A stretch of 64,000 nucleotides of DNA from Thiothrix litoralis. GTDB taxonomy: Bacteria > Pseudomonadota > Gammaproteobacteria > Thiotrichales > Thiotrichaceae. Position numbers and translations under genes: made by a program. Below the pieces are notes generated by a model. The model did no database searches and had not been told where the DNA came from. It saw nothing but the letters and a program-made list of their open reading frames with translations. How positions within the stretch are numbered: the stretch's first letter is position 1; each line of letters begins with the position of its first letter. The stretch is from the NCBI RefSeq assembly GCF_017901135.1, contig NZ_CP072801.1:3097501-3161500 (forward strand). The letters run 5' to 3'. This document shows, piece by piece, positions 1 through 4,383 of this stretch.

Positions 1-658
1 CACAATATTTCATAGAATCTTTCGTTTCCTCATCATCTTGACATGCTGACAAAAGAACAATAGTTCCTCTATTGTCCGAATGATTACCGCCATTAGTATC
101 ACAATGAAAACTCTTATGCCACTCCAAGTTTCGTGATAAAAAATCATTTACAAAGTCCTCACTTAGCTGCCTTGATCCTTCTTGTACAAGTGGAGAAATA
201 CGAGTTACAGTACCACTATGACAACTATCAGAGATAATAATAATTTTAGCTCCCTTGCTACTAATCAACCTCAAATAATAATAAATTTCATCATCTATAA
301 TAGGCTTATCATACAACGCCCAACATTCATCCCGACCGTCTGCTTCTGAATCTAATGCACAGGTATTTGGCAAAGAAAACCCATGCCCAGCAAAAGTTAG
401 TAAAAACACATCACCCTGCCCCAAACCACCATTTTCCTTACTAACCTCTAGCAAATAAGAAATAAGATTTTTTTTAGATGCCAATTCATCTCCATTTCTC
501 CTCGGAGAGGACAAAAACTTTGTTTTGAACCCTCGACTTTTTGCGATCAACCCCATTAGACGCATATCATTAATGCAATTATCTAAAGGCTTCTTGTGTC
601 CATAAAATCTTTCATCTATAGCATTTACGCCTAAATGCAACGACCAACACTTACCCAT
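1..658 (-). CDS. Metacaspase (peptidase C14, p20 domain), 3' end beyond window
   Basis: The minus-strand frame starts at ATG 658 and stays open to the window edge, giving 219 residues of a longer protein. The catalytic dyad of clan CD caspase-like cysteine peptidases is visible: His92 in FAGHG at the end of a hydrophobic beta strand, and Cys146 in DSCHSG. The N-terminal LHLGVNAID and the spacing between dyad residues fit bacterial and plant metacaspases, which cleave after Arg or Lys. An AAGGAG ribosome site lies in the 9-base gap after the lipoprotein gene, so it is the last visible gene of a three-gene operon. No signal peptide is seen, so a cytoplasmic location is inferred. The DNA is clearly AT-richer than the rest of the window, suggesting acquisition. 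What follows the p20 region cannot be seen. Confidence 0.88.
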   Translation of the reverse strand, partial: MGKCWSLHLGVNAIDERFYGHKKPLDNCINDMRLMGLIAKSRGFKTKFLSSPRRNGDELASKKNLISYLLEVSKENGGLGQGDVFLLTFAGHGFSLPNTCALDSEADGRDECWALYDKPIIDDEIYYYLRLISSKGAKIIIISDSCHSGTVTRISPLVQEGSRQLSEDFVNDFLSRNLEWHKSFHCDTNGGNHSDNRGTIVLLSACQDDEETKDSMKYC

Positions 659-667
659 AATCACTCC

Positions 668-1645
668 TTAATTCCATGATTCATTCTTTGGCTCTTCATT
701 GTTAGAATCATTAGCTATCTCTTTGTTGCTGTCATCACCTCTTTTTTCCTCACTATTTTCATATTCAAGTACACTATTCAATGTCGCACTGTATGCTGTT
801 AATGCCTTCTCTCCTACTGCCGTATCCACAGAAGAGTATTTTTTCATGCCGCCACCACCTTCTTGGAACTGAATAGTCAAGGTTTTATCAGAGAACATAC
901 CTGAACGTATCGGAGCAAAAGCGAACTGTCCTCCTTGTAAAAATGACTTGTAATACTCATGTATAACTTTATTAGATTTCAAAATCTGAATTTTAACAGG
1001 CACGGGGATTCTATAAGGAATTCCCTTCAAGGATTCAACGCTGTTGCTATCAATCGAATATACCACATTCAAATTAACTGGGCTAACTATCCTCAATGAG
1101 TGTGTACCATCCATTATATCACCTTCTGCCTCAAAATATTTATCGCCAACTTGATGAAAAACAAGAGACGATGGGTCAATAATTTCTGTCCTATCAACCG
1201 GAACATCCCCCCCTCTAGTCATTTTAGCGACATTAATAGCTAATTTAGTTAAATTAGTCAAAACCTCATTTGTTTTATCTTTCCATGTAAGATTAAAATC
1301 AGTCATAATGCCAGAATCACTAACCACAATTTCCATTTTTTCAGCATCTTTAAAAAAACCTCTGGCATCATCAGGATTTAATAAAAATTTCTGCTCTACA
1401 TCAGGAATAACAGTCGTATTAACTGAAACAGACTTATCATTAACATCAACAACACTCTTGTCAAAGGTATTGTATTTTACTTCAACAAGGGTTTTTGGCA
1501 AATAAAATAAAATTCCTTCTTCTACTTCGCTGCTATCTTTGCCAATAGGTTTTACCTCTATTACTTTACTGCAAGAAGCAAGTAAACTAACAGAAGCCAC
1601 AACCAAATATATTACTCTTAAATTAAAAATGGGTTTAATTCTCAT
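668..1645 (-). CDS. Lipoprotein of unknown function in the caspase operon
   Basis: The 325-residue product begins with a basic N-terminus, a hydrophobic stretch and the lipobox LLASC (Cys25), so it is predicted to be lipidated and membrane anchored. The body is beta-rich with no catalytic motif I recognise. Residues around 45-52 read GILFYLPK, weakly reminiscent of the YALPKT opening of the DUF4831 family, but that is only an impression. The last 35 residues are acidic and low complexity (Asn, Glu, Ser, Asp), probably disordered. A GGAG site precedes ATG 1645, which is 30 bases after the upstream caspase-like gene, and the stop is 9 bases before the metacaspase start. Cotranscription is likely, so it may be a membrane partner, substrate or sensor for the proteases. 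That role is inference. Confidence 0.8.
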   Translation of the reverse strand: MRIKPIFNLRVIYLVVASVSLLASCSKVIEVKPIGKDSSEVEEGILFYLPKTLVEVKYNTFDKSVVDVNDKSVSVNTTVIPDVEQKFLLNPDDARGFFKDAEKMEIVVSDSGIMTDFNLTWKDKTNEVLTNLTKLAINVAKMTRGGDVPVDRTEIIDPSSLVFHQVGDKYFEAEGDIMDGTHSLRIVSPVNLNVVYSIDSNSVESLKGIPYRIPVPVKIQILKSNKVIHEYYKSFLQGGQFAFAPIRSGMFSDKTLTIQFQEGGGGMKKYSSVDTAVGEKALTAYSATLNSVLEYENSEEKRGDDSNKEIANDSNNEEPKNESWN

Positions 1646-1674
1646 CTTTCAACTCCAATAAAAATATCTATTCT

Positions 1675-2394
1675 TTATAACCATTCATCATTTGAAACAA
1701 GAACTTCAGAAGCTGTACCTATGTCATCTAATGAGTAGTAAACAGTTCGACACCCAGCATAAAACATTGCATTAATTCGACTAGAACCGAAATATCTTTT
1801 CAATGAATCAAACTTCAGAAGTCTTTCATAAAAAATTTTGCTTTGCCCTCGAAAAGGATAATCCACAGGAAAAACATATACTCCATCGGAAGTCTGGAAC
1901 CCATGCCCTGTCAAATAAATTAGTGACACATCTGCATTTTTCGAAAGAGCATGAAAACCATCCAGTATAACTTCTATTTCCATACATTGAGGGTCAATAG
2001 ACATGATGGTATCAAACCCTGATTTCATCAAAGACTGCGAAATACGCTGCATATCATAACTCGCCCCTAATAAGGGTCGAACCTCATCATGATAACTAGA
2101 AAAAATCATGACAAGAGCTACCCTTTTCTCATTATCTGGTACTGGTAATATTTGCCAATTATCAATATCATCTTCAACAGGAACCACTGGAATCTGAAAT
2201 CCATGGCTTTTTACTTTCGTCAATTCAACTAACTGATGTTTAAAGTCTTTGAAGCTGAGAATCTCATATCCCAATAATTCAACTAACGCACTTGCAAATG
2301 GATTACCACCACTCTCATCTTTATCAAGTGTTGGCCTACCTTTTTGGGAAGCATAAAAATAAGAAATATCGAGATTATTAGTTAATAAATCCAT
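1675..2394 (-). CDS. Caspase-like protein with p10-like segment ahead of p20-like domain
   Basis: The 239-residue protein has a complete p20-like fold region from about residue 91 (RVALVMIF) to 220, with His164 in LTGHG and Cys215 in FYAGCR. In typical bacterial caspase-like proteins the Cys motif is DACR or DSCHSG; here the preceding Asp is replaced, so activity is uncertain. Residues 8-45 (YASQKG, then GGNPFASAL) resemble the small-subunit motif that normally follows p20, as in YATAPG..NSPFTAAL. The order is therefore p10-like then p20-like, with little room for a p10 after residue 220. It may be a truncated tandem caspase or a rearranged one. The frame is open for about 18 codons upstream of ATG 2394 but has no good start there. 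First gene of the operon with the lipoprotein and metacaspase; AT-rich. Confidence 0.78.
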   Translation of the reverse strand: MDLLTNNLDISYFYASQKGRPTLDKDESGGNPFASALVELLGYEILSFKDFKHQLVELTKVKSHGFQIPVVPVEDDIDNWQILPVPDNEKRVALVMIFSSYHDEVRPLLGASYDMQRISQSLMKSGFDTIMSIDPQCMEIEVILDGFHALSKNADVSLIYLTGHGFQTSDGVYVFPVDYPFRGQSKIFYERLLKFDSLKRYFGSSRINAMFYAGCRTVYYSLDDIGTASEVLVSNDEWL

Positions 2395-2508: not shown

Positions 2509-3452
2509 TCAAAAGTCTATTGTTTGACTACGCTCCCAGATCCACAGCAAGCAACTTGCTCTCCCAGCATTTGTCCTGATAGCAAAACAAAACCCATTTT
2601 TTTCACACTCCCTTGCCACAAACCCCAGCCCTAACCCATGCCCATTGGCTTTAAAACTCTGTGCATCCCCCTGCATCACCGCTTCCACCTGCTCCGGCGT
2701 CATCCCCACCCCATTATCCGAAACCGAGATAATTAACTGATTTTCAGATACTTCTGCCTTGACAATGATCTCCCCTCCCGGCTGTTCCCCAAACTTCTCC
2801 GCCACCGCCTCAAATGCATTTTTCACCAGGTTGTGGATGATCAGATAGGTAGAGCCAGCGCGTTCCTCAAACTGGCAATTGTCCGCATCCGGCGGGAAAT
2901 CAAGGCGCAGGGTAATACCCGGATGGCTATGACCATTCCCCAGCAGCAACTGCACGTCATTACGCAATTCCGCCAGTGTAATCAGCCGCTTGGGAGCCTG
3001 TTTATTGCCGATTCCATCTAGCACCAGCGCTGAAACCTTGGACATATACCCCAGCGCCCGCTCCTGCCGGTCTATGTCTTTGGACATAGCCACGGCTGAA
3101 TGCCGCAAATGGTCGACTGACATCGCGGCAACGCCGATCAGGTTGCTGATCTCATGGGCAAGGGCGCGGACGGAATGCCCAATCGCAGCATCGCGCTGCA
3201 AGCCTCGCGCCTCTTTTTCCATGCGGACGATGCGCCACTGCATACCCAACAACTCGACCAGCTCATCATGCAAGTAGTGACCCAACCGAAAGAATACGAA
3301 CACCAGCCCCGCATAACCAACCAGCAGATAAAGCCACAGCCACGGCACGGGCGGGCAAAACAGGCACAGCACCCCGCCGTAATCAGGATGATGGGTAAAA
3401 TGACCCGTACAAACAGATGACGATAATGCTTGCGCAAATGCGCCTGCCACAC
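2509..3452 (-). pseudogene. Membrane sensor histidine kinase, apparently frameshifted
   Basis: From about 3370 leftward one frame encodes a transmembrane segment, a coiled-coil linker, an H-box (ALAHEISN), an N-box (HNLVKNAFEAV), G1 (DNGVGM) and G2 (GHGLGLG): a complete histidine kinase core. The first transmembrane helix (VRVILPIILITAG) is instead in another frame, opening at GTG 3452. The two halves join well if one base is added at the CCCC run around 3372-3375, giving two adjacent helices. An ATG with a better ribosome site sits slightly upstream but meets a stop after three codons. The gene follows the response regulator on the same strand and would be its partner. A real inactivating deletion and a consensus error are both possible. 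The long open frame reaching 3603 overlaps the regulator gene and is not the true start. Confidence 0.7.
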
Positions 3453-3502
3453 GACCTCGCCCGCTGGTGATTATTTCTGCATATCCCCTCGCTTGGGCGG
3501 CG

Positions 3503-4168
3503 CTAGGCGGCCTGCCTACGGGCAGCCATTTGTACCGCCTCGGTACGGTTACGTGCATGGAGCGCCCGCAAAATCGCGCTGACATGCAGTTTGATAGTGC
3601 CATCCGAGCAACTCAGCTCTCTGGCAATGGATTTATTGGGCAAACCTCGTGCCATCAAGCGGAAAACCTCCCGTTGACGCGGTGTCAGACCTGCCATTCC
3701 TGGCATTTCATCGCTATCCGGCATGGTAGGTGGGGGGGAATTCCCGGAATCGCTAGGAAGACTGCTTTTGGCTTCCGCCAACATTGAGGGTGAAATGTAG
3801 ATTTCACCCGCCAAAATCAGGTGCAAAGCATTTTTCACATCCCCCGCCCCAGCAGATTTGGCAATATAGCCACGCGCCCCGTGTTCAATCAGCTTGCGGG
3901 CAATTTCAGCATCATCCGCTCCCGACATGATCACCACAGGCGTTTGCTGAACCTTTTCCTTTATCAGGGCAAGAGCAGCCACGCCAGTTCCACCCGGTAA
4001 AAAGACATCCAACATGATCAAATCGAAATTGGCATACTGACACAGAACACCCACGGCCTCCTCCACAGACCCTACTTCAAAGACGGCAGCACCGGGGTAA
4101 AAATGTTCCAGCAAGCTACCCAACGCTTCGCGGAACAATGGCTGATCATCCACAATTAAAATACGCAT
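3503..4168 (-). CDS. NarL/FixJ-family response regulator
   Basis: The 221-residue product has a receiver domain (residues 1-120: acidic pocket VDD at 7-8, phospho-acceptor Asp54 in IMLDVFLPGG, Lys near 104 in YIAKSA). A Pro/Ser-rich linker follows, then a LuxR-type helix-turn-helix (about 155-215, LTPRQREVFRLMARGLPNKSIAREL). It should be a phosphorylation-dependent DNA-binding regulator. I chose ATG 4168 because the receiver starts immediately (MRILIVDDQP) and GAGAGG lies about ten bases upstream; the longer TTG start adds 11 residues without family support. It is followed by the kinase gene, about 50 bases after its stop, forming a two-component pair. A short inverted repeat (ACTAT-ATTA-ATAGT) near 4203-4216 in the divergent region toward ubiD could be an operator, but this is speculative. 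Confidence 0.9.
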   Translation of the reverse strand: MRILIVDDQPLFREALGSLLEHFYPGAAVFEVGSVEEAVGVLCQYANFDLIMLDVFLPGGTGVAALALIKEKVQQTPVVIMSGADDAEIARKLIEHGARGYIAKSAGAGDVKNALHLILAGEIYISPSMLAEAKSSLPSDSGNSPPPTMPDSDEMPGMAGLTPRQREVFRLMARGLPNKSIARELSCSDGTIKLHVSAILRALHARNRTEAVQMAARRQAA

Positions 4169-4383
4169 AATAAGCCCTCTCTTGTCACTTTCAACACTCA
4201 AAAACTATATTAATAGTATAGGTAAAGAGGGGGATAATTCGACAAATGATATAGACTTAAGCAAGTTTTTTTTATGAGGTCTTGATATAAGGCATATATT
4301 TTTAATCACTGATTTTCAACACAAACCCCTGATTCCCATAAGCCCATAGCCGCCCGCCCAACATTTCCGCTATTATCCTTTCC

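Follow-up and report, generated by a model that had tools for sequence, protein, structure and literature searches.

To our knowledge, neither a substrate nor a partner has been identified for most bacterial metacaspases, and the locus described here raises the question of whether the lipoprotein gene beside one of them encodes such a partner. The locus lies at the left end of the window, i.e., the whole 64,000-nucleotide stretch of DNA that was analysed (G000:C1:3097501-3161500), in the single-contig 4.28 Mb genome of Thiothrix litoralis (G000).

Anatomy and composition of the locus

A first-pass annotation had described three minus-strand genes separated by gaps of 30 and 9 bases, and ORFs A, B, and C were found as claimed, with ~30 nt between A and B and 9 nt between B and C. 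It had also allowed for additional genes beyond the left edge of the window. Extension in that direction completed gene C, which runs ~215 nt past the edge (complete at L005:9286-10158), and added gene D, which starts 58 nt after C within the same AT-rich block. The features of the locus are as follows (window positions unless L005 is given):

L005:8739-9227, minus strand: gene D, 162 aa, no known family, left of the window
1..658 (ATG at 658), minus strand: gene C, predicted type I metacaspase, 290 aa in full
668..1645, minus strand: gene B, predicted lipoprotein, 325 aa, LLASC lipobox
1675..2394, minus strand: gene A, caspase-fold protein with apparently reversed halves, 239 aa
1..2500 plus ~900 bases leftward beyond the window, including gene D, no strand: AT-rich cargo block, delimited by GC
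2509..3482, minus strand: sensor histidine kinase, frameshifted between ~3378 and ~3363
3503..4201, minus strand: LuxR-type response regulator, upstream of the kinase, assigned from sequence

Genes A-D have a GC content of 0.34-0.36 and a GC3 of 0.25-0.28; the segment as a whole (~0.35) is thus AT-richer than the window (0.53), as had been noted. The first 2.4 kb of the window had the second-lowest GC among the 2.4 kb stretches sampled, the lowest being an overlapping neighbour or one like it. Left of gene D, GC climbs again before a cache-domain gene. A gene for a TnpB/IS200-IS605-type transposon protein, recognised by eye, lies ~4 kb left of the AT-rich block (L005:4111-5343).

On the right, the neighbouring kinase is frameshifted, as the first-pass annotation had it: residues 1-35 of the G000 copy lie in a frame that has a stop close to its start, and residues 43-310 lie in another. 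Two features had been missed, namely the response-regulator gene before the kinase and the apparently reversed order of the caspase halves in A. The longest ORF of the response regulator starts at TTG, and MRILIVDD is the likelier start.

One two-component system, different cargo

Downstream of the response regulator and frameshifted kinase, and sharing their strand, lies the AT-rich segment. The kinase is intact in six congeners (G049, G051, G055, G059, G060, and G061); these kinases show 87-91% identity to that of G060 and the G000 copy shows 61%. The same response regulator occurs beside the kinase in L008, L032, and L049-L052. In each congener, the genes downstream of the response regulator and kinase, on the same strand, form a cargo block of their own, except that G049 and G055 share theirs, and cargo GC is 0.29-0.42 in most, parts of G049/G055 being less AT-rich. 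The cargo of G060 consists of B, C, a second lipoprotein, and D, with A absent. That of G051 comprises Amidase_3, small lipoproteins, and a broken D; that of G061, a lipoprotein, a GH24 lysozyme, an LprI inhibitor, and a possible permuted papain-like amidase; that of G049 and G055, a GH19-like protein, SH3, an amidohydrolase, and a nuclease lipoprotein; and that of G059, two short genes. Since the same kinase precedes different cargo in six congeners, the A-D segment represents one of several forms of a variable cargo operon. These differences also support the earlier impression that the segment was acquired, in the sense of acquired or rapidly replaced DNA. Gene D is present in only three members of the genus (71% identity between G000 and G060), and the flanks of the unit differ, that of G000 lying between MenA-like and UbiD-like genes and that of G060 beyond UbiD (names assigned by eye). 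Changing cargo behind one two-component system marks where such modules pass between species.

Paralogous kinases at L053, L054, and L057 (G062, G056, and a second locus of G051) also precede AT-rich genes, several of which encode predicted secreted proteins or lipoproteins, suggesting that the AT-rich pattern is general for this kinase family. In G061 (L049:3719-9512), the gene for the phage-type GH24 lysozyme lies directly before that for the LprI-domain lysozyme inhibitor, likely an enzyme-inhibitor pair.

Gene C is a predicted type I metacaspase

Gene C matches Pfam C14 (E 2e-13, positions 11-194) and carries its catalytic residues in the canonical motifs previously claimed, His92 in GHG and Cys146 in DSCHSG. 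A p10-like half (CQDDE...NGAFT), kept in alignment, lies downstream of p20. As judged by this arrangement, which is that of type I (p20 with HC dyad and DxCH, then p10), the product of C is an ordinary type I metacaspase. Such enzymes cleave after Arg or Lys in a calcium-dependent manner. The nearest solved structure is GSU0716 of Geobacter sulfurreducens (PDB 3bij; residues 3-257 aligned, E 1e-26), which shares the HC dyad, DSCHSG, and the p10-like half. A metacaspase operon of G. sulfurreducens has been reported with an amidase (PMC3501461); we found no description of a partner lipoprotein for GSU0716.

Relatives of C are common (at least 543 in the genome collection) and their contexts varied; named genomes that carry them include an uncultured Thiothrix sp. 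(L098) and Cocleimonas (L074), both from the same family as the window. No consistent lipoprotein neighbour was found among 80 loci from named genomes, surveyed with a crude gene caller that left ~16 of the 80 without usable calls. Close metacaspase relatives also occur in a gene run shared by two genomes of another Thiotrichaceae genus, G045 (L034:6455-12190) and G040 (L035:6679-12778), where the metacaspase is accompanied by a TIR-like NTPase (872/839 aa, by eye), an AT-rich small gene, a second caspase, and a GH19 chitinase-like gene.

Gene B belongs to a divergent lipoprotein family

Gene B matches no Pfam family. It carries a GxxFYLPKT motif and a lipobox with Cys25 in LLASC, invariant in 9/9 family members; B is thereby predicted to be an exported, lipid-anchored lipoprotein. 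A two-sequence profile gave one weak match in the class, which proved a real distant member once aligned. Profile searches in other genomes of the phylum recovered seven more full-length relatives, which are 14-21% identical to B and have in common the lipobox, a GxxYxLPK motif, a GLLxS segment, and a YRxP segment; this count leaves out G607 C46 and G566, weak matches with the N-terminal motif only. Within the order, B was found in 2 of 63 genomes, improved profile included, and neither viral contigs nor plasmids yielded a relative. The family is described in none of the libraries searched, PADLOC gave one weak match in one member (LmuB, E 0.005), and our search of the literature on caspase-lipoprotein operons returned nothing matching. 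These results suggest that the candidate protease-partner lipoprotein family containing B has not been described before. Predicted structures of B (pLDDT 35) and D (pLDDT 50) were not interpretable.

The gap between B and C is 9 nt in G000, the two genes overlap or abut in G060, and each is only 29-31% identical between the two species. Considering that spacing is tight in both despite this low identity, the two genes have stayed paired while their sequences diverged widely. A peptidase gene lies next to 7 of the 9 full-length B members, in six cases on the same strand within ~31 nt, and the peptidases are of four unrelated types (C14, M10/M12, S8, and trypsin-like). Neighbours were identified by Pfam and motifs, those of G228 and G607 falling below Pfam cut-offs and resting on motifs:

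G000 and G060: C14
G180: astacin, E 4e-49, at 31 nt
G228: M10/astacin-like metallopeptidase, E 1e-4, just below cut-off, HEFGHVLGLEHEH, at 18 nt
G542: M10/astacin-like metallopeptidase, E 1e-7, overlapping
G607: trypsin-like, E 7e-4, below cut-off, GDSG, at 4 nt
G204: divergent S8 subtilase, E 1e-29, ~200 nt away
G485: no immediately adjacent peptidase; patatin lipase gene nearby
G745: no peptidase immediately adjacent

When the two caspase loci used as search seeds are excluded, an adjacent peptidase gene accompanies 5 of 7 members. A few per cent of genes would be expected to have a peptidase neighbour; with ~7% assumed as background, 5 of 7 would arise by chance on the order of once in 30,000. 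Since its relatives adjoin four unrelated peptidase types, B appears to be protease-linked rather than caspase-linked. The functional link of B to a protease that had been proposed is therefore supported in a more general form, relatives adjoining metallo-, subtilisin-, or trypsin-like peptidases; the homologues found by profile, mostly without caspase genes and beside other peptidases, speak against a link specific to caspases. A lipoprotein family that follows four unrelated protease folds provides a directly testable partner for one metacaspase, and an entry point to protease-triggered membrane systems that the defence and family libraries now available miss.

In G180, an equally AT-rich gene for a 1318-aa protein with phosphoribosyltransferase-like and PNP_UDP_1 domains lies downstream of the astacin and lipoprotein genes (L154:12127-16083).

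A proposed protease-partner pair in exchangeable cargo

The reading that we favour, with a probability of roughly 45%, is that the locus is an exchangeable AT-rich cargo of a two-component system, varying between species of one Thiotrichaceae genus, with the B-C pair as its core. B would be lipid-anchored after export and paired with the closely coupled metacaspase; in situations of stress or conflict that the neighbouring regulator defines, the peptidase would cleave B, as a substrate, or recruit it, as a membrane-bound adaptor, and so alter the cell envelope. We hold the protease-lipoprotein partnership itself with moderate confidence, and B, anchored in the membrane, would most likely serve C as substrate or regulator. 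It is hard to see how an inhibitor tailored to a single active site could act on four protease types, which favours substrate or adaptor. Cotranscription, control by the two-component system, direct contact between B and C, and the outcome for the cell are elements that we infer. By eye, no obvious signal peptide is seen in C or in the S8 and trypsin-like partners, and several other partners of B apparently have their own; direct B-C contact is not assured, since C has no obvious signal peptide whereas B should be exported. Two of the nine B members without an adjacent peptidase and the frameshifted kinase of G000 also count against this reading.

An effector-immunity cassette directed against rivals, with C as a delivered toxin and B as a periplasmic immunity protein, is an unlikely alternative that finds support in the sister cargo. 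C would parallel the signal-less lysozyme, amidase, and GH19 of the sister cargo, where peptidoglycan hydrolases without obvious signal peptides lie beside lipoproteins, and B would parallel LprI, which adjoins the GH24 lysozyme. Turnover of the cargo from species to species also fits conflict genes. However, markers of T6SS (VipA) and eCIS (gp19 tube) are absent from G000, G060, G051, and G061, several partners of B apparently carry their own signal peptides, and a single lipoprotein family serving four protease folds is unlike specific immunity.

Somewhat less probable again is a self-directed envelope-stress or cell-death module, including an anti-phage one, in which activated C would process B or other targets and lyse the cell. 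Bacterial gasdermin-protease pairs place a membrane-targeted protein beside interchangeable proteases, as is seen for B and its neighbours; unlike gasdermin, B carries a lipoprotein signal, and Pfam, which covers gasdermin, gave no family for it. In canu caspase-nuclease systems, a caspase with an Ig-like fold is coupled to a gated nuclease whose family pairs with several protease families (PMC12799240). The present locus likewise couples a caspase gene to a partner whose family pairs with several protease families, but that partner is a lipoprotein and no nuclease or Ig-like domain was found in A, B, C, or D. Exchangeable proteases next to a single membrane protein recall the logic of gasdermin and gated-nuclease pairs (PMC12799240), and in other Thiotrichaceae the loci of the closest C relatives also contain a second caspase, GH19, and a TIR-NTPase-like gene. 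Against this, the operon contains no nuclease, gasdermin, sensor NTPase, or defence-system model (PADLOC returned no complete system, only its generic caspase model matching C), B is predicted to be exported, and its family was not found in viral contigs or plasmids.

Gene A appears to have its caspase halves in reversed order

Gene A matches Pfam C14 (E 6e-10) over only the first 101 of 233 positions. It has His164 in GHG and Cys215 in AGCR; the first-pass annotation had already reported GHG and a Cys in AGCR, not DACR. A p10-like half (residues 12-71) appears to precede the p20 half (89-216). The latter matches single-domain DxCR caspases with 53 bits; residues 12-71 match positions 154-213 of the caspase profile above all 5000 shuffles, yet with only 5.2 bits, and this N-terminal part alone is not recognised by Pfam. 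Rotation of A gives one continuous match to the caspase profile (1-213 of 226). The ends of A lie near the p20/p10 junction, as a circular permutation that arose by duplication followed by truncation would predict; A could equally well be two broken halves that became fused. The p10-p20 order was found in no relative of A among 369 genomes, and no relatives of A were found in viral contigs.

Type III metacaspases, which have p10 before p20, are known only from algae after secondary endosymbiosis, and no p10-p20 protein was present among 11,208 prokaryotic caspase homologues (PMC6426788). A would share their order of halves; unlike them, it most closely resembles single-domain DxCR bacterial caspases, and it matches p10 weakly. 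Type III is characterised by an HC dyad in GHG and DxC motifs; A has the GHG and the Cys, but AGCR stands where DxCR would be expected. We consider it rather improbable that A represents a natural circular permutation (p10-p20) of a bacterial caspase and that the B family is at the same time a widespread, undescribed, common membrane-bound partner of interchangeable proteases. If true, A would have an architecture for which all reports to date come from algae.

A frameshift-tolerant search upstream of A gave a possible out-of-frame caspase remnant (7 of 300 shuffles were as good); as the remains of a first caspase copy this was locally suggestive and was rejected, having no support in the joint alignment. 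A may be a minor or decayed third caspase-fold gene, possibly a fused remnant. The two-caspase cascade proposed earlier is thus not supported, A being absent from the sister locus of G060.

Least probable of all is that the whole segment consists of horizontally acquired genes that are in decay and at present have no role, A being a fused remnant and the kinase broken: the frameshift, the possible upstream remnant, and the apparently reversed halves, AGCR motif, and absence from G060 of A would fit, but B, C, and D are intact and their order conserved, C keeps its dyad, D is 71% conserved in G060, and the joint alignment does not bear out the remnant.

Further caspase genes occur elsewhere in G000. 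One at C1:2053210-2056773 (L001) encodes a large caspase-NTPase protein, and a small one at C1:1609246-1612869 (L003) adjoins a multicopper oxidase-like gene, an arrangement similar to that seen in G058.
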